In this document: positions 2,213 through 27,098 of the stretch, piece by piece
Layout: each line of letters starts with the position of its first letter
How positions within the stretch are numbered: position 1 is the first letter of the stretch
Notes under the pieces: model-generated
What the model was told of the DNA's origin: nothing
What the model saw: only the letters and a program-made list of their open reading frames with translations
Databases searched by the model: none
Source of the DNA: a virus
Strand: one strand, 5' to 3'
Virus record (IMG/VR): IMGVR_UViG_3300012931_000759
Span: 186,001 to 250,000 of that record
Length of the DNA: 64,000 nucleotides
Program-made: the position numbers and the translations under genes

Positions 2213-2806
2213 ATGGATCGAATCCCCCGCACAGCTTGGTCTACCCAGCGATCGGTCCCCTTCTCTGAAGAAGAGAAGCAGGCCGCGCGCACAGCCATGG
2301 CCAAACTCGGGAACTTTCTCGGGCAGTTGTGGGCCGCCCAGCAGCACAGCGAGCGGCTGATGGACGTCCTCAACAAGGCGCCCGATACGCCGCCCGAACA
2401 GTTGTTTTCGATCCGTCATCTCATCAGGAAGTTCAGGGACGAGGTCCGCCAGCACTTCACGCAGCTAATTCCGGTCTTCTCTGCCGCCATCACGACGCTG
2501 AATCCGTTCGCGAAAGACACGGATACGGCTGCTATACGTGAGAGTCTCATCGACGCTATGCAGCAGCTTTCTGAGGTCATCGAGACCTACATGGAGACTT
2601 TCGAGGATTTTAATGCGCCGGACCAAATTCAGAGGCTAAAGGCTCTGTTCCAGAAGGTCAAGCAACTCTCGCAGAGTATCGAGGCGGTGATCAAGGGCAG
2701 GCTGCGCGACCATTTTGAGAAAAATATCCTGCGCCGCCAGAGGATCAGCGATCTACATAATGGCATCAGGCGCCGCGCGCGCCTGGTCGCCATGTTGGAG
2801 GGTTGA
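2213..2806 (+). CDS. Unknown helical protein
   Basis: A 197-residue protein whose start (MDRIPRTAW) is chosen because the promoter box lies inside the longer open frame and AAAGG stands just before this ATG. The sequence is almost entirely charged, amphipathic helix (for example IRHLIRKFRDEVRQHF and RLKALFQKVKQLSQSIE), ending in a basic patch RRQR...RRRAR. No family recognised. First gene of the promoter unit that leads into the protease-scaffold gene, so possibly a head assembly or internal protein. Confidence 0.7.
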   Translation: MDRIPRTAWSTQRSVPFSEEEKQAARTAMAKLGNFLGQLWAAQQHSERLMDVLNKAPDTPPEQLFSIRHLIRKFRDEVRQHFTQLIPVFSAAITTLNPFAKDTDTAAIRESLIDAMQQLSEVIETYMETFEDFNAPDQIQRLKALFQKVKQLSQSIEAVIKGRLRDHFEKNILRRQRISDLHNGIRRRARLVAMLEG

Positions 2807-2808
2807 AG

Positions 2809-2979
2809 ATGGGTTTTATCAAAAATGCAGATGGCGACCAGACTAATACCATCGAGCACGTTTTCGAAGGTGTGGATGAGGTGTTGGAGGAGATTGCCAG
2901 CCATGCGGCTCCGGACGAGCCCGCCCTCGTTGTGGATATGTCGAGTTTTGAATCTCTAGATAAAAAAGAATCCAACTAA
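2809..2979 (+). CDS. Small acidic protein, unknown
   Basis: 56 residues, beginning two bases after the previous stop and ending in a TAATG overlap with the nuclease gene. Acidic, with a helical segment IEHVFEGVDEVLEEIASH. No family recognised. The tight spacing on both sides supports translation. Confidence 0.6.
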   Translation: MGFIKNADGDQTNTIEHVFEGVDEVLEEIASHAAPDEPALVVDMSSFESLDKKESN

Positions 2980-3644
2980 TGGGTTATAAGGATAGGGTCT
3001 GTAGCCGCTACAGTAAAACATACACGCCGCGCGCATCGAATCAGCAATATTGCGCTGACCTAGAATGTAGACGTTGGAACAGGAACCGTATCAACAGACA
3101 AGCGCGTAAACATCCAGAGAAAGAGGTTTGCTGTACCGTTTGTGGCACTGTGTTCTCGACTAGTAGGTGGAAACAGCAGCAATGTTGCGGAAAGGAATGT
3201 CGCAGTTTGTTTATGCGACTTAAGAACAAGGAATATTATGAGCAAGTTTTGAGACTGCGTAATAGTCATCTAAAAAGAGGTTATTCGTATCCGCAGAAAT
3301 ACATTTTCGAAGCAGTTTTCAAGCTGTTTCCAAATCTGGTCTGGCAATACGACGACCGTTCGACATTACGCAATCCGAACACAGGATATCCACTTGAATT
3401 GGATATCTGGTGTCCCGAAAAACGTTTTGCGATAGAATATGATGGGGAACATCATTTCTCCCCGAAACAGTTCGGACAGAAGGGGTTTGACTATGTGCGT
3501 CTCTTAGACGCCACCAAGACTAAGGAATGTGTCGACAAGAATATAGTCCTGTTGCGCATCTCCTGCCGGGATGACTGGCGCAACAAGGAATGGTTAGCTC
3601 AAAAGGTCGGAGAGTGCTTGAATGGCGTTTACCAAGTTTGCTGA
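2979..3644 (+). CDS. Homing-type endonuclease, zinc fingers plus PD-(D/E)xK (Vsr/DUF559-like) domain
   Basis: 221 residues. The N-terminal half has paired cysteines (CxxxC, CTVCG, CCGKEC), zinc-ribbon style. The C-terminal half fits a Vsr/DUF559-like restriction-fold nuclease: LELDIW, then FAIEYDGEHH, then KT..C and VLLRI, supplying the D...ExD core. Base composition is clearly more AT-rich than the structural genes. The gene overlaps the start of the protease gene by 23 bases and begins inside the TAATG of the previous gene, the insertion style of free-standing phage homing endonucleases. Target unknown. Confidence 0.8.
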   Translation: MGYKDRVCSRYSKTYTPRASNQQYCADLECRRWNRNRINRQARKHPEKEVCCTVCGTVFSTSRWKQQQCCGKECRSLFMRLKNKEYYEQVLRLRNSHLKRGYSYPQKYIFEAVFKLFPNLVWQYDDRSTLRNPNTGYPLELDIWCPEKRFAIEYDGEHHFSPKQFGQKGFDYVRLLDATKTKECVDKNIVLLRISCRDDWRNKEWLAQKVGECLNGVYQVC

Positions 3645-7838: not shown

Positions 7839-8099
7839 ATGAGCGGATTACGCATTTCCGACGAGATAGCCGCCGCGATGGCGGAGCGGTTGGGTCTCTT
7901 CAGGAAAGCGACCTCTGCGGTCGAAGGCTTCAAAGCCCAACTCGCAGCGGCCAACACCTGTGAGCAGCTGACCCAACTGCGTGCTTTCTGGCTGGATGGA
8001 AGAGGCGCCAGTCAGTTGAACGCGGAGGGTGGCGATGTCGCCTACGGACAAGCCATGCGCGCGTTCCTAGAGAAGAAGAAAGCCCAAGGATGCCCCTAG
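7839..8099 (+). CDS. Unknown protein, short paralogue of the next gene
   Basis: 86 residues from ATG 7839 (TAGGAGACACC before it), chosen over an upstream in-frame start that would overlap the previous gene. It aligns with the N-terminal half of the next protein: DEIAAAMAERLG against DEIASAMSAQLG, LFRKA against LYRKA, FKAQLAAA against FKAEMDAA, and FWLDGRGASQL against KWLASGSEGATKL. No known family. Confidence 0.7.
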   Translation: MSGLRISDEIAAAMAERLGLFRKATSAVEGFKAQLAAANTCEQLTQLRAFWLDGRGASQLNAEGGDVAYGQAMRAFLEKKKAQGCP

Positions 8100-8112
8100 G
8101 AGGATACGGGAG

Positions 8113-8904
8113 ATGACAACTCTCAAGACATATCATGCCGACGAGATCGCCTCAGCCATGAGCGCGCAGCTTGGGAACGAGGAGTTTGTTGGCCTCTATA
8201 GGAAAGCTGAAGCCACCTGGTGGCAGAAGGGTCCGTCTTCGCAGACCTTTAAGGCCGAGATGGACGCAGCCAAGACACCCGCCGAGGCGGTCGCGATCCA
8301 CAACAAGTGGCTGGCGTCCGGCTCGGAGGGCGCAACTAAGCTGGGCAAGGAGCACGATGACTTCTCTCCGCTGGTTGATTATTCCGAGGAGCGGCGCATG
8401 CAGCTCGGCGGCCAGAAAGCTGAGGACGCCGCGCAGGAGGCCGACAAGGGCTGTCCTAAGCATCCCGAGGCGCAGGACGGATGTCCCGAATGCGCGGACG
8501 CTGCCGACGGAGTCGGCCTGGCAGTAGCTATCGACTTCGCCATCAGGCACATCGTGAAGGTTGCTGATGCGCTGGACAAAGTAGGGTATGTAGGCGTAGC
8601 TGGTGCACTGGACGAGACTCTCCAAAAGTTGGCGGCGTCCCGACCAATTGTATCCGAGGCAGCGCGCAGCTACAAAGAATGGGTATCCTTCCTCCGCAAG
8701 AAGAGTCCGAAGGCTGCCGAGAAGTTCAGCAAGACCTACAAGAGCGCCCTGAAGGACAAAAAGAAAGAACTCGGGGCTGAGAAGGCCGAAGAATATGCCA
8801 TGAAGACTGCCCTCGACGGCGTGCCTAAGAGCTACCTCAAGGAACCGACTCCCAAGCACGGCAAGGGCAAAAGTGGTCCGCTGACGGCAAAACGTTCAAA
8901 ATGA
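8113..8904 (+). CDS. Unknown protein with helical tag and cysteine pair motif
   Basis: 263 residues. The N-terminal 85 residues are paralogous to the preceding gene. Around residue 115 is CPKHPEAQDGCPEC, a possible zinc knuckle. Residues about 147-175 carry the shared helical hairpin motif (IVKVADALDKVG...GALDETLQKLA). The C-terminus is strongly basic (KKSPKAAEKFSKTYKSALKD ... KHGKGKSG), which would suit contact with packaged DNA. Probably a head-internal protein; no family assigned. Confidence 0.7.
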   Translation: MTTLKTYHADEIASAMSAQLGNEEFVGLYRKAEATWWQKGPSSQTFKAEMDAAKTPAEAVAIHNKWLASGSEGATKLGKEHDDFSPLVDYSEERRMQLGGQKAEDAAQEADKGCPKHPEAQDGCPECADAADGVGLAVAIDFAIRHIVKVADALDKVGYVGVAGALDETLQKLAASRPIVSEAARSYKEWVSFLRKKSPKAAEKFSKTYKSALKDKKKELGAEKAEEYAMKTALDGVPKSYLKEPTPKHGKGKSGPLTAKRSK

Positions 8905-8925
8905 TACATAGACTGGAGACCGGGC

Positions 8926-9618
8926 ATGTTGAGATTGGTCCAAATTGGCAACGCGCTTCCTTTATCATATCCGGTTGATTCTACTTCTGTTTTTGAACCA
9001 GGGATGATTGCGCAGTTAAAGCTTGCTGGCCAGGATATTGTGGCCGGCTTGTCCGACGGGACGGCGCCGCTGGGGATCATCGACGATGTCAGATCGACGG
9101 CGTTCACGCGCCCGTCTATCGACGAGACTGTGGTCATCAAGTGTACGGGCATCCTAGATGCGTACGGACGCTACATCAGCACGGCGGACGCAAAACAGGA
9201 GCTGCTCAACCCTAATGTGGTACCGGCAAGCTTCGTGGCCGACTATGAGAACCTGGTCCTGAATCCGGTCAACGGCATCCTGATGGCTCCGGCTGGAAGC
9301 GTGCTCAATTTCGACCTAGACGGGGACGGGAAGCCGGACAGTATCAGGACGGTCGTTAACTATGTGTACACAATTCCCGACCTGCCGGGCGAGGACACCA
9401 CGGTCGGTAGCAACAGGATGACGATCTGGTTTACTCGCGGCGTGTACATTACGGACAAGTTCGACACGACGCAGAAGTATCCGCTCAATGCGGCCTTGTT
9501 TGTGAACGAAGAGGGGCTGCTGACTACAAAACAGGCGACGCCAAACCACCCCGCCGTGGCAATGATAAGTGGCCCACCCAGTGCGATGTTAAATAATCTT
9601 GAACTGCTATGGCTTTGA
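8926..9618 (+). CDS. Probable virion surface or decoration-type protein
   Basis: 230 residues, beta-rich with few charged runs. The opening MLRLVQIGNALPLS resembles MALRILQPGIQPLG of the protein encoded just before the capsid gene, so the two may be distant relatives. It contains the calcium-loop-like stretch DLDGDGKPDS near residue 128. No enzymatic motif. The end of the gene turns AT-rich where it runs into a decayed endonuclease. Confidence 0.65.
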   Translation: MLRLVQIGNALPLSYPVDSTSVFEPGMIAQLKLAGQDIVAGLSDGTAPLGIIDDVRSTAFTRPSIDETVVIKCTGILDAYGRYISTADAKQELLNPNVVPASFVADYENLVLNPVNGILMAPAGSVLNFDLDGDGKPDSIRTVVNYVYTIPDLPGEDTTVGSNRMTIWFTRGVYITDKFDTTQKYPLNAALFVNEEGLLTTKQATPNHPAVAMISGPPSAMLNNLELLWL

Positions 9619-16365: not shown

Positions 16366-17037
16366 ATGGCTCTCAGGATTCTTCAGCCGGGCATCCAGCC
16401 GCTCGGACAGTTCGATTTCGCAGACGGTTACCTGCTTAGCGTTAAGGGCGGCGAGGTTTGTACCCTTGTGGCTCTGTCGCGCACAAACACCGCTTCCGAA
16501 AAGGCGGCTGCGGACGCGCTCGATGGCTACACCAACTACTCTCAAAACATGCGCGCTGGCCTGACCCTTAACATCGCAGTCAACACGGCCCGCCCGCTGT
16601 GGCTGACTGATGACGGCACCGGCGCCTCTGGCATCATCCAGGGGTACGGCACGCTGTTCGGCCAGGTGATCGGCACCCCTGTCGGTCTTACGACCTCGGG
16701 AACCAACCTCGGTCCCCACACCGCCCTTGCCTCTGGCAAAGTGACCGCGTGGGACAAGCCGGGCCTCTACGCTGTGACGCTCGACGCTGTCGACACTGAC
16801 GCGACGAACGGCCTTCAGCCAAGCAACGTGGCCATGGTGCCGCAGAAGGCGATCTACCCGACGATCCTCGGTGTTCTGACCCCGACGGCCGGACGTTCGG
16901 TCGGCGCTGCTGGCCCCACGGTCGCCCGTTTCGTGGAGTTTGAATCCACCGCCCGCTCTCTCGTCCGCACGCCTGCCTCGCTCGTGGGCGCGACTCCGGT
17001 CTGGGAGCACGCCGTGATTTCGTACTTTGTCGAGTAG
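16366..17037 (+). CDS. Probable capsid decoration or head-surface protein
   Basis: 223 residues, start behind GAGGAGATGAACCA. It is the first gene of the capsid transcript and lies directly before the major capsid gene, where decoration or head-fibre proteins are common. The sequence is beta-rich, Ala/Thr/Gly-rich and has two DGY triplets. The N-terminus resembles that of the 8926-9618 product. No catalytic motif. Confidence 0.65.
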   Translation: MALRILQPGIQPLGQFDFADGYLLSVKGGEVCTLVALSRTNTASEKAAADALDGYTNYSQNMRAGLTLNIAVNTARPLWLTDDGTGASGIIQGYGTLFGQVIGTPVGLTTSGTNLGPHTALASGKVTAWDKPGLYAVTLDAVDTDATNGLQPSNVAMVPQKAIYPTILGVLTPTAGRSVGAAGPTVARFVEFESTARSLVRTPASLVGATPVWEHAVISYFVE

Positions 17038-17146: not shown

Positions 17147-18172
17147 ATGTCTCTTTTTAACACCCATGGCGAGATGAACGCCAGCGGCGTCAAGGATGCC
17201 CTTGCCCAGATCGTGAAGTATGCCACGATCCTTGAGAACATGGAGCCCGCCAACACCGGGCTCGCCCAGCAGCCCTCGTTCAACGACGAGCAGCGCGACG
17301 AACTGATCAAGCGCGCCCTTCTGACCCAGGAAGGCAAGATTGCCCTCGGTCAGGCGATGGCCAACCCAATCCGGCGTAACCTCGACTACCAGGGAGTCGG
17401 CCGCCGGGTTCTGGTGATCGACCCGCTGCCCCAGGGCGCCCTGCCCGTGTACGACCGCGATATCGACGTCGCAGCCGTGGTCGTAGCCTCGAACGGCTCG
17501 GCTCCCGAGAGCCGCGTGTTCGGTGACCGCGTGACCGTGCCGGAGTTCGAGGTCGTCTCGAATCCGACCGTGCGCATTGCCGAAGTGCGTAGACGCCGTT
17601 TCAACGTGATTGACCGTGCCCAGCAGAAAGCCCGCCAAGAGATCCAGGCCCAGGAAGACGCGAACATTTTCGCAGCCCTGGACTACGCGGCCGACGCAAC
17701 CCTCGGCGGCGAAAACACTGCCCAGGACATCGCGGACGCTGGTCTGCTCAAGCGCGACTTGTCCGAGATCAAGGTCCAGGTGGACCGCTGGGACCTGGTC
17801 ACGACCAAGTTCCTTATGAACATCCTTGAGTTCAACGACATTCTGAACTGGGGTTCGGGCGGTGGTCAGGCTGCGGGCACTGGTGGCGAGGTGGACCCAG
17901 TGACGATGCGTGAAATCCTCCAGACCGGTCTTTACGCGCATATCTGGGGCGCCGACATCATCGTCTCCAAGATCGTGCCGCCAGGCACGGTGTTCGGGAC
18001 TGCGGATCCGGAGTTCGTTGGTGTCATGCCTATCAGGCAGGACATTGAGGTACTACCTGCTGACGAACCTAAGCAGCTAAAGCTCGGCTGGGTGGTCAAT
18101 GAAATCATCGGCATCGGCATCGTGAACCCCCGTGGTGTCGCCGTTGGTCGCAAATCAGTGGCCGTCGGCTAA
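17147..18172 (+). CDS. Major capsid protein (HK97-fold)
   Basis: 341 residues behind a strong ribosome site (ACAGGAGGACAAAGAGTT). The pattern fits HK97-type capsid proteins of myophages: a helical, Gln/Glu-rich N-terminal arm, RRVLVIDPLPQGALPVYD, a loop with FGDRVTVPEFEV, a long helix rich in Ala/Gln/Glu (RAQQKARQEIQAQEDANIFA), and a C-terminal sheet ending near PNPRGVAVGR-type residues (IVNPRGVAVGRKS). The fold assignment is by pattern, not by search. Strong promoter, leader hairpin, good ribosome site and a UUCG terminator all point to very high expression. Any processing at the N-terminal arm by the upstream protease is unproven. Confidence 0.85.
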   Translation: MSLFNTHGEMNASGVKDALAQIVKYATILENMEPANTGLAQQPSFNDEQRDELIKRALLTQEGKIALGQAMANPIRRNLDYQGVGRRVLVIDPLPQGALPVYDRDIDVAAVVVASNGSAPESRVFGDRVTVPEFEVVSNPTVRIAEVRRRRFNVIDRAQQKARQEIQAQEDANIFAALDYAADATLGGENTAQDIADAGLLKRDLSEIKVQVDRWDLVTTKFLMNILEFNDILNWGSGGGQAAGTGGEVDPVTMREILQTGLYAHIWGADIIVSKIVPPGTVFGTADPEFVGVMPIRQDIEVLPADEPKQLKLGWVVNEIIGIGIVNPRGVAVGRKSVAVG

Positions 18173-18203
18173 CGCCAACCGGCAACTAACTGAATCGTGA
18201 ATG

Positions 18204-18238
18204 AAAAAATCGGGCTGCTTCGGCAGCCCGATTTTTTT
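18204..18238 (+). terminator. UUCG rho-independent terminator after the capsid gene
   Basis: CGGGCTGC-TTCG-GCAGCCCG (18211-18230) flanked by AAAAAAT and ATTTTTTT, giving an extended stem and T-run. Confidence 0.9.
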
Positions 18239-18255
18239 GTGCCTGTTCTTTTCTC

Positions 18256-18284
18256 TTGACAAGGCTTAGCAAGATAAATAAACT
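18256..18284 (+). promoter_or_regulatory. Sigma70-like promoter of the nuclease/methyltransferase cassette
   Basis: TTGACA at 18256-18261, a 17-base spacer and TAAACT at 18279-18284. This is a host-type promoter unlike the phage late promoters, placed between the capsid terminator and the cassette, so the cassette may be expressed early. Confidence 0.5.
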
Positions 18285-18324
18285 GAAGATAGAACAACTT
18301 TTCAAGTGATAGTGTCAGGAGAAA

Positions 18325-19911
18325 ATGAGAACGAGGGAAAAAATCGATGACGCCATTCTGGCGGAGGACATCAGGAGCCTCTCGGAAAAGATCGGCAGAG
18401 TGCCGAGGCAGGAAGATTACAAGAAGGACGGAACCTTCGGCTTGAACACTCTGCTGCTCCGGAAGTCTTGGAACCAATGGCTGACGGAGATTTTTGGTCA
18501 GATCAATGAGGTTCGCAAAACCAAGCGAGAGAGGGCAACTGCTCTGGAGGTTTTGCTGGATATCAAATGCGTGTGTGACAAGTTGGGCAAACCTCCAACG
18601 CAGGCGGAGTACAAAGTGGCAGGCAAACACCCTTTGGGAACCATACTGCGGCACCGGAAATGGAACGATTGGTTGAAATTGGCCACTGGTTCCGTGAACT
18701 ACAACCGCACGGAGGACAGCAAAACCAGGAGGATAGGCGACCAGGATCTTGCCGATGATGTGCGGCGGGTGGCGACGGAACTGGGGCACGCCCCGACTCG
18801 GAGCGAATACAACGAGCATGGTCGCCATTCCTCCGACACCATTGTGGTTAGGATGCCTTGGATGGAATTCATCCAGAAGGTTTGTGGGCTTGAGCCATCA
18901 AAAATTGCGTCCGTCAACAGGTCGAAGGCGACCAACGAGGAACTGCTGGCCCAGTTGAAAAGATTGGCGACGACTTTAGATCGAACGCCCCTGAAGGAAG
19001 ATCTGGGTGGTCAAAACGGATTCTGCTACACCGCATATGTTCGTGCCTTTGGCACTTTCGGCAATGCCCTTGTTGCCGCTGGATTGATCAATCCCCTGAA
19101 CCGCTATTGTGTTCCTCGCGAGGAACTGGTTGTCGAACTGAAGCGGGTGTATGGTCTGCTCGGCCACACGCCGTCCGAAACGGAGTTCCTGGAAAACAGC
19201 CCCATACGCAGCAATGGTTCGATATATTCCGAGTTCGGCTCCTGGACAAAGGCGTTCCTTGCTGCAGGTATTCCAGTTATAAAGGCCAGAAATATCTCCG
19301 TGGACGACATCAAGATCGCCTTGCAGAAATGGCATACTGCCAACAATGGCGACGATTCCTGCCTCGAATACTGGAAAATAAGAAAAGCAAAGAAAAACAA
19401 ACAGTTTCCATATTCGCCAAACTCCGTCAGCGCGAAGTTCCATCCACTATCCTGGGAAGAGATTATGCGCGAATGCGGATTCCCAAACTATGTAACCAAG
19501 GATCGTTATGTTACAGGGCGTAAACGCGGCGACCACACCGGAGCCGACGGCAACGAGTACCTATCCTCCCTGGAGAAGGAGATTGGCGATTTCCTGTTCG
19601 AATTGAAGGGCTCGGGAAATATCCTGGACTACGAATATGAGGCCAAAATATGCCCCGACAAGAACTGGACATGCGACTTCAAGGTGACGATGCGCGATGG
19701 CAGGGCTGTCTGGCTGGAGGCCGACGGCCTCCGCAACAACCGCAACCGACCCTACTCCTCGGGCAACAACGAAAAGATCGCATTCTATGGCAACAACGGA
19801 ATGGATTGTCGCATAGTGTCGTATTCCTCTCCCAATATCCGATGGGCGGTGGCCGACAGCCTAGCCTTGCCATTGCCGGTCCCCACCAATCCGCGAAAGG
19901 AAAACTTATGA
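18325..19911 (+). CDS. Homing-type nuclease with an array of HNH_repeat-like DNA-binding units and PD-(D/E)xK domain
   Basis: 528 residues behind GTCAGGAGAAA. About six units of some 50-60 residues follow the pattern ELK-(R)-x-LGxxPxxxEF ... FGSWxxAxxxAGL, for example LKRVYGLLGHTPSETEF and FGSWTKAFLAAGI, matching the homing-endonuclease-associated repeat; the last is degenerate. The C-terminal about 110 residues contain a conserved Glu, CDFKVTMRDG and VWLEADGL, a PD-(D/E)xK core. An array of this length should read a long target. Overlaps the next gene by ATGA. First gene of a four-gene cassette. Confidence 0.75.
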   Translation: MRTREKIDDAILAEDIRSLSEKIGRVPRQEDYKKDGTFGLNTLLLRKSWNQWLTEIFGQINEVRKTKRERATALEVLLDIKCVCDKLGKPPTQAEYKVAGKHPLGTILRHRKWNDWLKLATGSVNYNRTEDSKTRRIGDQDLADDVRRVATELGHAPTRSEYNEHGRHSSDTIVVRMPWMEFIQKVCGLEPSKIASVNRSKATNEELLAQLKRLATTLDRTPLKEDLGGQNGFCYTAYVRAFGTFGNALVAAGLINPLNRYCVPREELVVELKRVYGLLGHTPSETEFLENSPIRSNGSIYSEFGSWTKAFLAAGIPVIKARNISVDDIKIALQKWHTANNGDDSCLEYWKIRKAKKNKQFPYSPNSVSAKFHPLSWEEIMRECGFPNYVTKDRYVTGRKRGDHTGADGNEYLSSLEKEIGDFLFELKGSGNILDYEYEAKICPDKNWTCDFKVTMRDGRAVWLEADGLRNNRNRPYSSGNNEKIAFYGNNGMDCRIVSYSSPNIRWAVADSLALPLPVPTNPRKENL

Positions 19912-20699
19912 AACGGTTCGACCGCGAGACATTGGCGCAGAGGCTGAGATCCTTTTCGGAAAAGTTGGGTTCATCGCATATCTCGAAATCGATGGTGGAC
20001 TCGGCACTCGACATGCCGGCATCGGCCACTTTCGCCAGGTGCTTCGGGTCATGGGGCAACGCCTTGGAATTCTCCGGTCTCCAGAGGGGGACAATCACCG
20101 GTAGGCCCCAGGATCCTCCAATCGAATTGACTCCGGAAGCCATGGATATCATCGAGGGGGAACTTCTCGGCGACGGGAGCCTGGATTCCAGCCCGACCGT
20201 GAACGCCTGTTTTGCGCATTCGACCGCAAACTTCGCGTATTCCAAATTCCTGTATGAATCTCTTGGGAAATGCCATGTTCCGGTCAGGAAGCCGGAGTTG
20301 CTGAAGGCGCGCGGAGGGAAGCCACAGGCAAGGGTGCGCAGCCCGTCAAATGCGGCATTCGGCAGACTTAGGCGGCTGTGGTATCCAGACGGGACCAAGA
20401 TCCTGCCGCAGGGATTTTTTCTCAACAGGACAAGATGCCTGTTCTGGTACCTGGGCGATGGCTATGTGGAAACCGGAACAATCAAGTTCTCGACCTGCGG
20501 CTTCACAAGGTGCGAAGTGGAGCGTTTGGCGGAATTGCTGACCGGTTCCGGCTTCAAGTCCGCCAGGAACAACCGCAGCGGGGGCTACCATGTCATCCGC
20601 ATGTCCAAGATGGCTGCCCCCGGGTTCCTGGAATGGATAGGGCCATGCCCAGCGGCGGGCTACGAGCACAAATGGAACCTGAAAGGGAAAATCCATTGA
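19908..20699 (+). CDS. LAGLIDADG homing endonuclease
   Basis: 263 residues, start set by AAAGGAAAACTT and the ATGA overlap. An N-terminal unit ending CFGSWGNALEFSGL is a single copy of the repeat arrayed in the upstream nuclease. Two LAGLIDADG-type motifs follow: IIEGELLGDGSLDSS (about 83) and FWYLGDGYVETGTIKF (about 178), so the protein should act as a monomer with two active-site acids. The shared repeat suggests the two nucleases were assembled from the same parts. Confidence 0.8.
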   Translation: MKRFDRETLAQRLRSFSEKLGSSHISKSMVDSALDMPASATFARCFGSWGNALEFSGLQRGTITGRPQDPPIELTPEAMDIIEGELLGDGSLDSSPTVNACFAHSTANFAYSKFLYESLGKCHVPVRKPELLKARGGKPQARVRSPSNAAFGRLRRLWYPDGTKILPQGFFLNRTRCLFWYLGDGYVETGTIKFSTCGFTRCEVERLAELLTGSGFKSARNNRSGGYHVIRMSKMAAPGFLEWIGPCPAAGYEHKWNLKGKIH

Positions 20700-21433
20700 T
20701 CACCGACTACATCAACAAACACACAGTCATGGGAATGCTTTCGGCGAACTATGTCCCGTTCGGAGATTGGAGCGGCTTCTACAGGAACAAGACCCGGACG
20801 AAAGTCACGGTTTTCGATCCCGGCTTCGATGGCGATTTCAAGGAGACGGCGTTCCACTATGTTCCCGACAGGATGGGAAAAGGATACAGCTCCACTCTAC
20901 TAGTGTCCCGCTTCGACTCCGCCTTCTTTGCCCTGGCGGGGGCAGAACACAAGGAGATCCGCGAAACCAGGAACAAATGGGACAGGCTGGTGTCCGTCCG
21001 CGAGGAGCCTTCGTCCGTGGGGGAGGTTGTTGCCCTTGTGGACAAGTGGGACATCCTGTCCGGCAGCAAGTATGGATTCAACCGGCACAGTGGATACGAC
21101 AGGAACTTTTTCCGGCGATATTGGGAAACGGAACGGAGCAACCTATACTCGTTGTTCTTCTACCACGGCGATGCGCTTGTCGGCTACAGTGTGGTGTCCA
21201 AACTGCAGGATGACAATTGCTTCAGGTATGTAATCAGGAAAATGGACATAGGTGCGGGCAGGAATATATGCCTGTACATCGACTACAAGACCTTCGAAAG
21301 CATCTGGAGGGATCGCAAGGGGTGTTTTTACGTAAACTGGGGCGCAAGTTCGGGCAAGGTTTTGAAATACAAGGAGAAATTCCCAACCTTCAAGGAGTGT
21401 AGGGTCTGGTTCCACAAAAAGGGGGGCAAATGA
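20696..21433 (+). CDS. Possible GNAT-fold acyltransferase partner of the methyltransferase
   Basis: 245 residues from TTG 20696, which overlaps the previous stop and is preceded by AAAGGG; ATG 20730 is the alternative. The centre and end read like a GNAT fold: SLFFYHGDALVGYSVVSK, then RYVIRKMDIG, then NICLYIDYKTFE, and FYVNWGASSGKVLKYKEKFP, where the last resembles the closing strand of acyltransferases. The family is not certain. It overlaps the methyltransferase start by ATGA, so the two are translationally coupled. One idea is a base-modifying pair in the spirit of phage Mu Mom, which is a GNAT relative, but that is inference. Confidence 0.55.
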   Translation: MITDYINKHTVMGMLSANYVPFGDWSGFYRNKTRTKVTVFDPGFDGDFKETAFHYVPDRMGKGYSSTLLVSRFDSAFFALAGAEHKEIRETRNKWDRLVSVREEPSSVGEVVALVDKWDILSGSKYGFNRHSGYDRNFFRRYWETERSNLYSLFFYHGDALVGYSVVSKLQDDNCFRYVIRKMDIGAGRNICLYIDYKTFESIWRDRKGCFYVNWGASSGKVLKYKEKFPTFKECRVWFHKKGGK

Positions 21434-22566
21434 TCAGCACGACGCCATACGACAGCTCTACACACGCCAATCCTTGGCTTATGGAGACGAACAATTCCTA
21501 TGCCATCCTTGGTCCAGAAGGTGTTCCATTGACAGCTTCCTACATCTGGTCGAAAAGCGGGCAGGACAGGGAGGATCTTGTCAATTGGGTTTTCCGGCAT
21601 TACAGGGACACAGGCTTTGTCAAAAGCGGGGAATCCGGAAATCTCATGGATGACTTTGCTAAACTGAGGATGAAGGATCCGAATGATGTCCTCAACGCCG
21701 ACGGGGAGATCAAGAACAGTTCCCCGCTTTGTAACAATGTCTGTAGACATTTCGTGTGGGAGAAGTATCATTCTGCCAAGGGCGGGAGCAAAAGCAGGTC
21801 CGTCATCGATGTGTTCAACGATGACCAGACATTCCTCAATGTTCTGAAGAACAGGATGGGCTATTGTGTGTCGATGGAGGACGGGGAGGAGCGACCATAT
21901 GTGTTCACCATCACTGATTCGATGGTCCTACAGGGCATCCGGTCCACCGGGTATGGGTACAACGTCAGCCTGTTCAAGCCGCTAGTCGGCAAGTATCTGT
22001 ACGGGAAATACGCCAAAAACAAGGTTTTCGACTACTCGGCTGGCTGGGGCGCAAGATGCCTAGCCGCGATGAGCCTTGGGATAGAGTACTATGGCGTGGA
22101 TCCATTGACCTCCAAGGAAATCAATGGGATGATAGCCTTCTTTGGTGGAAGGGGGTTTGTGGTCGATGGCTGCTCGGAAGACCGCAATGCATATGCCGGA
22201 ATACCTAAGGTAGATTGCGTGATGTCGAGTCCGCCATATTTCGACCTGGAGAGCTACAGCAATGACGCAAGACAAAGCGTGAACAAGTTCGGGAGATACG
22301 AGGATTGGGTGAGCTCGTATTGGGGCGGAACTGTTGTGAATTGCCTTGGCATATTGGAGAAAGGCGGATATTTCATCATGGTTGTCAAAGATTATGTGGA
22401 GAAGCGCCATCTTTCCGAGGACATGGGGGCTGTTTGTAGGAAGGGTGGGCTAGTGCTAGAGGAGACGATCCATTACAGGACATCGACCAGCCACCTGTCG
22501 GGCAAAAGGATGACAAGCAGGACATCCAAAAATGATGAGACAGTGTTCGTATTCTATAGAAAATGA
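21430..22566 (+). CDS. DNA methyltransferase (amino-methyltransferase class, SPPY type)
   Basis: 378 residues. The S-adenosylmethionine motif I is VFDYSAGWGARCLAA at about 199-213, and motif IV is SSPPYFDLE at about 266-274; the order I then IV fits the gamma-like class, and SPPY rather than DPPY is typical of N4-cytosine enzymes, although N6-adenine cannot be excluded. The 190 residues before motif I are unusual and unrecognised. The final strand FVFYRK is standard. Last gene of the nuclease cassette; no restriction partner other than the cassette nucleases is visible. Confidence 0.7.
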   Translation: MISTTPYDSSTHANPWLMETNNSYAILGPEGVPLTASYIWSKSGQDREDLVNWVFRHYRDTGFVKSGESGNLMDDFAKLRMKDPNDVLNADGEIKNSSPLCNNVCRHFVWEKYHSAKGGSKSRSVIDVFNDDQTFLNVLKNRMGYCVSMEDGEERPYVFTITDSMVLQGIRSTGYGYNVSLFKPLVGKYLYGKYAKNKVFDYSAGWGARCLAAMSLGIEYYGVDPLTSKEINGMIAFFGGRGFVVDGCSEDRNAYAGIPKVDCVMSSPPYFDLESYSNDARQSVNKFGRYEDWVSSYWGGTVVNCLGILEKGGYFIMVVKDYVEKRHLSEDMGAVCRKGGLVLEETIHYRTSTSHLSGKRMTSRTSKNDETVFVFYRK

Positions 22567-22724: not shown

Positions 22725-22743
22725 ACTATCAATAATCCATAAT
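22725..22743 (+). promoter_or_regulatory. Phage late-type promoter of a small transcript unit
   Basis: ACTATCAATA at 22725-22734; the +17 triplet is AAT rather than CAT, so the initiator is weaker than in the others. A terminator follows only about 110 bases later. Confidence 0.6.
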
Positions 22744-22876
22744 TTTTGTCGGACACCAGCCGATGCGCCAATATGGCCGCAAGGGCGTGGCGGTCGGCCA
22801 ATCCAGACTGACCGGCAAGATGGGAAACTGAGCTAGACACTAGGCGGACCGCTCGTGAGGGCGGTCCGCTTTTTTG
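22742..22876 (+). ncRNA. Candidate small RNA or mini-mRNA between promoter and terminator
   Basis: Predicted start near 22742, ending in the terminator at 22844-22876, about 135 nucleotides. It contains one 22-codon frame (22763-22831, MRQYGRKGVAVGQSRLTGKM then GN) with no clear ribosome site. The closed promoter-to-terminator layout is what supports a discrete transcript; whether it works as RNA or peptide is open. Confidence 0.4.
22844..22876 (+). terminator. Rho-independent terminator
   Basis: GCGGACCGC (22844-22852) pairs with GCGGTCCGC (22861-22869), loop of eight, followed by TTTTTT. Confidence 0.85.
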
Positions 22877-22922: not shown

Positions 22923-22941
22923 TCTATCAATTTTCCAGCAT
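22923..22941 (+). promoter_or_regulatory. Phage late-type promoter
   Basis: TCTATCAATT at 22923-22932, six bases, CAT at 22939-22941. Opens the unit that begins with the gene at 22971. Confidence 0.75.
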
Positions 22942-22970
22942 TGAAAAGGAACCTTCCGAGGGAGGCATAC

Positions 22971-23246
22971 ATGAGTCGCTACAACTATTTCGGTACCATC
23001 CTGATCGACGGTTACGCGTTCCCGGAGATTCCGCAGGCCGTTTTCGATTTCAATTCTCAAGGGTTCAAATTCCTGAACCGCGGCGCGTATCCCATCGAGT
23101 ATAGTTTTGATGGAACTCATCTTCATGGTGATCTGAATCCAGCCGATGCCTCCAAGGAAATGTCGTTCGATGGGCGTTGTGAGTGTAAGGTGTTTTTCCG
23201 AGCCAAAGATGGTTACGGCATTTGTAGGGTGGAAGCCTGGAGATAG
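22971..23246 (+). CDS. Small beta-rich protein, probable virion component
   Basis: 91 residues. Start chosen at ATG 22971 behind GGGAGGCATAC; the earlier in-frame ATG lies on the predicted transcript start. Two DGY triplets (IDGYA, KDGYG), as in the virion proteins of this window. First gene of a promoter unit and followed three bases later by a GIY-YIG gene. No family recognised. Confidence 0.65.
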   Translation: MSRYNYFGTILIDGYAFPEIPQAVFDFNSQGFKFLNRGAYPIEYSFDGTHLHGDLNPADASKEMSFDGRCECKVFFRAKDGYGICRVEAWR

Positions 23247-23249
23247 ACG

Positions 23250-23969
23250 ATGGCCAGTGGAGTCTACGCCATAACGAACACTGTGAGCCTGAAAAGGTAC
23301 ATAGGTAGTTCGGACAATATAGATCAGCGATGGCGCCAACACAGACGAAAGTTGCGGAAAAATGGGCATTCTAAACCCCATCTTCAGGCTGCCTGGAACA
23401 AATACGGCGAACGGACCTTCAGGTTTGAAGTTTTGTGCTTGACTGATCAACCTTGCCAAGTAGAGCAGGCATTTTTGACAGTCTGGAAACCCGAATACAA
23501 TATTTCGGTGGGCGCCGATGCGTGGGCGAACCTTTACTGTGGAGCATCGGGCCAAATTGGGGCATCTCGCAGGGGATGTGTCCATTCCATAGAAGCCAAA
23601 GTAAAGATGTCGGCTTCTCACAAAGGAAAAAACTTGTCTGCCGAAACGCGTGCCAAGATTTCTTCGGCAAACAAAGGAAAAGTTCGTTCAGAAGAACAGC
23701 GTGCGAACATAAGCAAATCCAAAAAAGGTAAGCCTTCACTTTTCAAGGGCCAAACCCTTTTTGACGAGACGCGTGCCAAAATTTCGGCAGACAAGATAGG
23801 CAAGCCTGGTCATCCGCACACGGAAGAACATCGCGCCTCCATGTACAGGGACAACAATTCATCCAAACGTGCCGATGTCCACGCCAAGATCAACACAGCA
23901 CAGAAGGCTGCTTGGGCTCGTCGTAAAGCGGCACAAGGGAATGCGAATACTCTGGAGACGAAAACATGA
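23250..23969 (+). CDS. GIY-YIG homing endonuclease
   Basis: 239 residues. GVYAITN...KRYIGSS gives the GIY-YIG pair in the first 20 residues, followed by the catalytic-region RWRQHRRKL and EYNISVGAD. From residue about 120 there are several NUMOD3-like DNA-binding units (SAETRAKISSANKGK, SEEQRANISKSKKGK, FDETRAKISADKIGK). Overlaps the next start by ATGA. The combination is the standard layout of free-standing phage GIY-YIG enzymes such as the SegA family. Confidence 0.9.
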   Translation: MASGVYAITNTVSLKRYIGSSDNIDQRWRQHRRKLRKNGHSKPHLQAAWNKYGERTFRFEVLCLTDQPCQVEQAFLTVWKPEYNISVGADAWANLYCGASGQIGASRRGCVHSIEAKVKMSASHKGKNLSAETRAKISSANKGKVRSEEQRANISKSKKGKPSLFKGQTLFDETRAKISADKIGKPGHPHTEEHRASMYRDNNSSKRADVHAKINTAQKAAWARRKAAQGNANTLETKT

Positions 23970-25956: not shown

Positions 25957-27098
25957 CTGATACAGGCAAGAGACTGACTGGCAAAGTAGTGTGGTCAAGT
26001 TAGGGCCCTTCGGCGAAGCGATTCGTCGAAAGCATCGGGTGAATTGCTGGAAACCTTAGCGCGTCATGGCGGTGGTAATCAGCAGCCAAGCCTGCGAAGC
26101 CGGTAGGAATAGCAGGAAGGTTCAGAGACCAACAAAATTCTGGAAAAAAACTCACCTTTGAGGTGTAGTGATGGATAGGATGGCAAGAGGTATTTTGGTT
26201 GGCATGGCTTTGGGCGACGGGCATATTCGTATACGACGGGATCTTCGTTATCCGAATGCGCTTCCGTCTGCCACCTTATGTGTCAAACATTGTGCTCGCC
26301 AGACAGAATATGCCGAGTACAAAGCCAATTTGCTTCATCGTATCCTTGGAGGGGCGAAGCCAAAAGTCTCGCCTTTTGACAACAGCGGGTTTCCTGGGGT
26401 TCTGTTTGCGAAAACAAACAAATATTTCAGGATATTGGGAAAGCGATTGTACCGAAATGGTCACAAGTTCATCTCTCGTCAGATTTTGGATTATCTGACG
26501 GACGAAGGGCTTGCAATTTGGTGGATGGATGATGGAAGTCTCTATATGAAAAAGAGGAATGGCATCATCCATGCGCGAGAGGGCATCTTAAGTACTTATT
26601 GTTCAAAACCGGAATACGAAACAGTTGTTGACTGGTTCAAAGATAAATATAGTATTATAGTAGCCCCCGTTGTACACAAAAGCAGTTTCAGGATTCGCAT
26701 TAATACCGCAAACCTGAAACTGCTTGTCCCGATTATCGCTCCGTATGTTGTTCCATGTTTGTCGTACAAAGTAGATATGAAGTACGACCCAGAACTTTGA
26801 CACGAGCGCCCGACATCCCTTGTGGATGAAGATATGGTCCGACACTCCGGGGAAATCCGGAGATCCGGTCTAAACAGCCGGAATAACAGATGTCAACGAC
26901 AAAAAGGGTTTTGGCTTCATCTCCCGCGATGATGGGGGGGGTGACCTCTTTGTTCACTTTAGTAATATAAATGCTGAAGGATTCAAGTCACTTACAGCCG
27001 AGCAGCTGGTGTCATTCGCCATCGGGAAGAACAACCGCGGCCCGCAGGCGATCGACGTCGAGGTGATTGGGGAGCCGGAGTCCGACTTGGACGAGTAG
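25953..27098 (+). CDS. Cold-shock domain protein, split by a group I intron (exons 25953-25995 and 26893-27098)
   Basis: Exon 1 encodes [14 protein letters not shown] plus the first base of a codon; exon 2 starts TC and continues [20 protein letters not shown]. Joining T25995 to T26893 gives TGG-TTC-AAC, restoring the conserved W-F-N of CspA proteins. The spliced product is 82 residues with RNP1 KGFGFI and RNP2 LFVHF, and a short acidic tail. Unspliced RNA stops at 26001 after 16 codons. Expected role: RNA/single-strand binding and unwinding, acting in the cytoplasm on phage or host transcripts. Ribosome site GAAGGAGAAGG. The exon assignment is by reading, with very good fit. Confidence 0.85.
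26153..26165 (+). promoter_or_regulatory. Hairpin hiding the ribosome site of the intron endonuclease
   Basis: CACCT-TTG-AGGTG; the 3' arm is the Shine-Dalgarno for ATG 26171. T4 intron endonuclease genes are held back by similar sequestering structures, so translation may be restricted to certain transcripts. Confidence 0.5.
26171..26800 (+). CDS. LAGLIDADG homing endonuclease inside the intron
   Basis: 209 residues (GTG 26168 is an alternative start). Two LAGLIDADG motifs: [13 protein letters not shown] near residue 10 and [12 protein letters not shown] near residue 118, so a monomeric two-motif enzyme. Low GC. Most likely cleaves intron-less copies of the cold-shock gene at the exon junction, making the intron mobile. 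Members of this family sometimes also help splicing (maturase), which cannot be judged here. Confidence 0.85.
   Translation: MDRMARGILVGMALGDGHIRIRRDLRYPNALPSATLCVKHCARQTEYAEYKANLLHRILGGAKPKVSPFDNSGFPGVLFAKTNKYFRILGKRLYRNGHKFISRQILDYLTDEGLAIWWMDDGSLYMKKRNGIIHAREGILSTYCSKPEYETVVDWFKDKYSIIVAPVVHKSSFRIRINTANLKLLVPIIAPYVVPCLSYKVDMKYDPEL

Follow-up and report, generated by a model that had tools for sequence, protein, structure and literature searches.

The window analysed here, a stretch of 64,000 nucleotides corresponding to bases 186001-250000 of the 340,392-base virus record IMGVR_UViG_3300012931_000759, carries the structural gene block of a giant phage. Directly after its major capsid gene, at 18325-22566, lies a cassette of four genes, A to D, all of which overlap (ATGA at 19908-19911 between A and B, TTGA at 20696-20699 between B and C, ATGA at 21430-21433 between C and D). 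These reading frames and junctions are as described in an earlier reading of the same DNA made from its letters alone (the sequence-only reading). The features of the locus are collected in Table 1; related loci are referred to by L numbers.

Table 1. The capsid-adjacent slot and its cassette, in window coordinates
Feature	Position	Strand	Evidence and remarks
Major capsid protein gene	17147..18172	+	phrog_2522 major head protein, E 3.4e-76; conserved left border of the slot, proposed homing target
Intrinsic terminator 3' of the capsid gene	18201..18240	+	18-pair stem and T run; clear
Possible sigma70-like promoter, TTGACA-17-TAAACT	18256..18284	+	consensus match 10/12
Gene A, five HNH_repeats and a C-terminal PD-(D/E)xK/DUF559-like nuclease domain (plausible), 528 aa	18325..19911	+	PF18780 E 4.6e-50, 5 stretches
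Gene B, one HNH_repeat and a LAGLIDADG homing endonuclease, 263 aa	19908..20699	+	LAGLIDADG_2 PF03161 E 4e-17; PF18780 E 4.4e-7
Gene C, predicted tandem-GNAT protein, MprF/FemX (aminoacyl-tRNA transferase)-like, 245 aa, TTG start	20696..21433	+	family and fold
Gene D, SPPY amino-type DNA methyltransferase, 378 aa	21430..22566	+	N6_N4_Mtase (PF01555) E 2.8e-4, sub-threshold; phrog_12517 E 3.4e-13
Late-promoter-like motif CTATCAATA, right border of the slot	22726..22734	+	enriched in window
Second terminator, between the cassette and the next late gene	22842..22871	+	13-pair stem and T run
Next conserved late gene, right flank of the slot	22941..23246	+	ortholog directly after the capsid gene in L187 (~130 nt past its stop); downstream of the cassette in L103, L104 and L108

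Predicted products of the four genes

The sequence-only reading took A for a repeat-array PD-(D/E)xK nuclease. The repeat array stands, with five PF18780 repeats, whereas the nuclease fold is only plausible: in the C-terminal domain an E / DF / ExDG / K pattern is invariant among five relatives, which is compatible with the PD-(D/E)xK/DUF559-like fold class, but the matches of the domain to DUF559 are weak (E 0.05), no profile firmly names it, and a PDB search gave no match. Gene B is, as had been read, a LAGLIDADG enzyme with one copy of the repeat of A; its profile match is accompanied by both acidic motifs (LLGDGS and LGDGY), and A and B each match PF18780 above its cut-off. Within the record HNH_repeats are confined to these two genes, and D is present as a single copy. 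The assignment of D to the SPPY DNA methyltransferases likewise holds, since beside its profile matches both motif I (DYSAGWG) and motif IV (SSPPY) are conserved. Motif IV is intact in 44/45 of the cassette methyltransferases examined, with two of the SPAY form, and among fused or linked relatives both LAGLIDADG motifs fit a strict pattern in 29/47, the pattern being a stringent one. A genome scan with the D alignment found three contigs of metagenome-assembled genomes.

By itself the C protein of the window has no family match in Pfam, PHROGs or NCBIfam, and searches with it alone against phage and plasmid records (E <= 0.01 / 1) returned nothing usable; one phage match at E = 1 was dropped, as it sits in an open reading frame (ORF) unlike the C family. 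Relatives were instead reached by profile searches from the D alignment, which led to loci with C-like genes abutting D. PF09924 (LPG_synthase_C) is matched by 19/24 of these relatives (best E 5.2e-13), the window protein alone not being among them. Single-sequence folding of C was unusable (predicted local distance difference test, pLDDT, 32), whereas an AlphaFold2 (AF2) model built with the 24 relatives reached a pLDDT of 94.2 and a predicted template modelling score (pTM) of 0.90. The top solved structures found with this model by Foldseek are MprF, A-PGS and L-PGS, followed by tandem GNATs, FemX and Sbb17, with E 4e-9 to 1e-6 for MprF, A-PGS, L-PGS and FemX. Proteins of these types mostly take amino acids off charged tRNA. 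Because of these structural matches, together with PF09924 in its relatives, we assign C to the tandem GNATs of aminoacyltransferase type, as predicted from the model. Thus, the suggestion that the small protein is a GNAT is borne out by fold and family. The proposed analogy with Mom of phage Mu, a GNAT relative that hypermodifies DNA, is not: C would resemble Mom as a GNAT-type enzyme proposed to work with DNA modification, but its fold is that of LPG_synthase/FemX-type tandem GNATs, and scans of Pfam, PHROGs and NCBIfam gave no Mom-like profile, Mom itself not having been compared directly. C also differs from the PF09924 enzymes whose fold and profile it shares (LPG_synthase_C/MprF, FemX, Sbb17) in that it has no membrane or peptidoglycan context and is strictly tied to a DNA methyltransferase.

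Recurrence, fusion and replacement of the modules

The pairing of a GNAT with a methyltransferase, singled out by the sequence-only reading, recurs elsewhere: a co-occurrence search found C and D adjacent in 21 distinct contigs, in both gene orders and in most cases with a nuclease gene in the same unit, and no C occurs without D wherever flanking sequence is available. Moreover, the modules are repeatedly joined in one polypeptide. Enzymes of the D clade are fused to LAGLIDADG and helix-turn-helix (HTH) domains in proteins of ~690-740 aa (L013, L014, L015, L017, L018, L020, L109, L121 and others), to LAGLIDADG_2 (L058, L166, L169), to HNH_repeats with an A-type nuclease (L180, L194) or to an HNH_repeat (L178), and, by a weak profile match, to a treble-clef/Vsr-like MTES_1575 domain (L108); the partner in L265, DUF7487, is presumably also a nuclease. 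C itself is fused to LAGLIDADG in two genomes (L123, L099). In L120 (6371-8062), a locus with no capsid gene match, a classical single GNAT (Acetyltransf_1, E 7e-16) independent of C is fused to a D-family methyltransferase, and the coupling of GNAT and methyltransferase therefore arose at least twice. Nuclease and methyltransferase are thus genetically linked, in operons and in fusions, as in Type II restriction-modification (R-M), and PADLOC matched generic models for homing endonucleases and Type II methyltransferases but no other defence system. In L178 (9038-13920), two tandem A-type nucleases precede an HNH_repeat-methyltransferase fusion that carries a second N6_N4 methylase domain.

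Units that combine a nuclease with a D-type enzyme are found almost exclusively next to the major capsid gene. Flanks are available for 96 non-redundant D-family loci: a nuclease and a capsid gene are both nearby in 30, a nuclease without a capsid gene in 3, a capsid gene without a nuclease in 4 and neither in 59. The association of nuclease with capsid gene has a Fisher value of 3e-17, or 5e-16 when capsid-retrieved loci are removed, with kinship ignored in both figures. Orientation at the capsid flank varies, the unit being in the same orientation, inverted (L117, L134, L101) or partly inverted (L126). It occurs there in phages whose nucleases are unrelated, and in L264 and L265 the capsid gene before it belongs to a different family, phrog_138. 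The slot may also be empty: in L187 the capsid stop and the next gene start are separated by ~130 bases, terminator and promoter included. A capsid-anchored search found the slot with a nuclease alone in L195, L204, L222, L228, L233 and L248, and with full units in others. In 40 non-redundant capsid loci, 25 carry none of the modules, 6 a nuclease only, 4 a nuclease and a methyltransferase, and 5 all three; a methyltransferase implies a nuclease (9/9) and C implies a methyltransferase (5/5) in this sample. This nesting suggests stepwise addition, first of the nuclease, then of the methyltransferase and then of C.

The capsid proteins of L194, L108, L184, L178, L180, L103 and L104 are 83-90% identical to that of the window, and yet the methyltransferases of these seven relatives and the window fall in four deep clades; in addition, 20/25 supported clades of the D tree conflict with supported clades of the capsid tree. 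Phages whose capsid proteins are this similar (83-90%) also include some with an empty slot and some with a nuclease alone. It follows that one version of the cassette has repeatedly displaced another at a single site. As in free-standing homing, the insert is optional between conserved genes, with presence and absence among relatives and horizontal spread. The sequence-only reading missed this capsid-adjacent homing slot, the fusions of nuclease with methyltransferase and with GNAT, and the repeated replacement of the cassette.

Homing, DNA modification and competing explanations

Intronless homing is established: a free-standing endonuclease cuts the gene next to its own position in genomes without the nuclease (PMC6083498). 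Collaborative homing, where the carrier is shielded by an intron, is established too. The cassette is probably a mobile homing element that targets the capsid gene and has a DNA-modification arm of its own, a hybrid of homing and R-M. In a mixed infection, the nuclease would cut the capsid locus of a phage without the cassette, and repair from the carrier genome would copy the cassette into the cut locus. The C-terminal block of the capsid protein (residues 281-320) shows 88-96% conservation among 115 relatives. Because insertion beside the capsid gene leaves this conserved coding region, the presumed recognition site, intact, the carrier would need protection. D might mark the site of the carrier, with C helping it or adding to its effect by making the base modification bulkier, and the marked carrier would then be a self-immune element that also excludes its rivals. 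A self-protecting selfish element, or a means of excluding rivals, was what the sequence-only reading had considered, and a nuclease and a modification enzyme that travel as one mobile unit lend support to it.

Several points weigh against this explanation. Cleavage, its target site, a methylation motif or modified base, the protection, and the donor and product of C are things that we infer, while architecture, recurrence, fusion, capsid linkage and replacement can be read from the sequences themselves. The slot is also filled by stand-alone nucleases that have no methyltransferase beside them, so modification is not an obligatory means of protection, and some carriers also have LAGLIDADG genes that split the capsid gene, an alternative route to immunity. 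The slot also accepts unrelated cargo, and clustering may therefore partly reflect a permissive site. Finally, the specificity of the methyltransferase may differ from that of the nuclease.

The main rival, which we regard as rather unlikely, builds on such permissiveness: ordinary free-standing homing endonucleases would share a late-gene slot with an orphan methyltransferase, with or without the GNAT, that shields phage DNA from host restriction, the specificities being unrelated and the association one of hitchhiking. Orphan methyltransferases are common in phages, the 59/96 D-family relatives with neither a nuclease nor a capsid neighbour fit this account, and so do the SNase-like, beta-helix and duplicated structural genes found in the same slot. 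However, the physical fusion of D-clade enzymes to several types of nuclease, and of C to LAGLIDADG, argues against it, as does the nesting, with no methyltransferase lacking a nuclease in the capsid-anchored sample.

It is less probable still that the cassette is a phage-borne R-M or exclusion system that destroys the DNA of co-infecting phages or of the host without homing, the capsid position merely giving late expression or a safe site. Fused nuclease-methyltransferase polypeptides do resemble Type IIG enzymes, and the exchange of versions at a single locus recalls that of R-M specificities. Nevertheless, every nuclease part with a known name is of homing-endonuclease type, and in several genomes the unit runs opposite to late transcription, which argues against simple late co-expression. 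That the substrate of C and D is the adjacent capsid protein, not DNA, is very improbable: linkage to the capsid gene is constant across two capsid families, and GNAT and S-adenosylmethionine (SAM) enzymes are capable of protein modification, but D matches DNA N6/N4 methylases and its relatives are fused to DNA nucleases and HTH domains, while most capsid loci lack C and D (25/40 slots carry no sought module).

Returning to the homing/R-M hybrid, among the known systems closest to it are the nucleases of T4 Seg/Mob type and F-CphI, which are also optional genes between two conserved genes and are presumed to cut the neighbour where they are absent (PMC6083498). These protect themselves by sequence divergence or an intron, whereas in the cassette the nuclease is joined by two partners, a DNA methyltransferase and a protein resembling aminoacyltransferases. 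Type II and IIG R-M systems share with it an endonuclease and an SPPY methyltransferase that are adjacent or in one polypeptide, but the cassette differs in its LAGLIDADG and HNH_repeat homing nucleases, its linkage to the phage capsid gene and its tandem-GNAT partner. The ShiLan domain, an HNH insertion in a phage methylase gene, is another example of a homing nuclease physically tied to a phage DNA methylase (PMC11855218); there, the nuclease is inserted out of frame in the methylase gene, in contrast to the presumably co-functional modules at a conserved position here. The open-access literature gave no description of a system of homing endonuclease and methyltransferase, in keeping with the sequence-only reading, which knew of no described system with this content.

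It is customary to regard homing endonucleases and R-M systems as two separate kinds of selfish nuclease. Numerous independent unions of LAGLIDADG with methyltransferase and of HNH_repeat nuclease with methyltransferase, swapped at one essential gene, would bridge the two and would give a homing element a new means of sparing its carrier from cutting. We rate the cassette as a hybrid of this kind with a real chance of new chemistry: if C uses aminoacyl-tRNA, this would suggest a DNA-modification chemistry new to us. Only tentatively do we extend this to a class of self-immune homing systems, in which homing endonucleases coupled, and often fused, to a cognate DNA methyltransferase would act on phage capsid genes together with an aminoacyl-tRNA-using enzyme that aminoacylates DNA bases. 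Exclusion at the capsid locus between giant phages becomes directly testable.

Control elements and neighbours of the slot

The sequence-only reading placed the unit between the capsid terminator and the next late promoter, isolated from late control by a promoter of its own. The terminator is clear, whereas the isolation is weakly supported. Sigma70-like sites in the cassette region number 7 against 4.7 +/- 2.4 expected and are thus not above chance, and since the proposed promoter is a single consensus match, the claim that the cassette has its own is a weak one. At the right border, CTATCAATA is enriched, matching 16 times in the window where 6 would be expected, with a one-mismatch copy at 22924, and a similar element precedes the next gene in the empty-slot phage L187. 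CTATCAATA-like motifs lie ahead of late genes at window 16260, 22726, 22924 and 35839, and similar elements precede the gene that comes next in L181, L185 and L187; the motif is a candidate late promoter of non-sigma70 type.

A remnant of the capsid 3' end was suspected downstream of the cassette (22768-22800) and was dropped when an nhmmer profile of capsid ends missed it. In L185 (10352-11077) the slot holds a copy of the structural gene normally found upstream of the capsid gene, a relative of window 16366-17037, and the slots of L188 and L191 hold Staphylococcal-nuclease-like genes, so named by eye from their sequence. In L102 two copies of C lie between a capsid gene (2336-3211), which precedes the cassette, and a diverged second capsid-like ORF (8098-9171, E 5e-11) immediately beyond the cassette.

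Two further endonucleases were noted in the window. Two genes downstream of the cassette, at 23250-23969, lies a GIY-YIG endonuclease with NUMOD3 motifs, and at 26168-26800 a second LAGLIDADG_2 endonuclease (E 5.9e-25). In L013, L014, L018, L092, L099, L110 and L121, relatives of the latter are flanked on both sides by capsid gene pieces, and the capsid gene is therefore a target of several homing elements.

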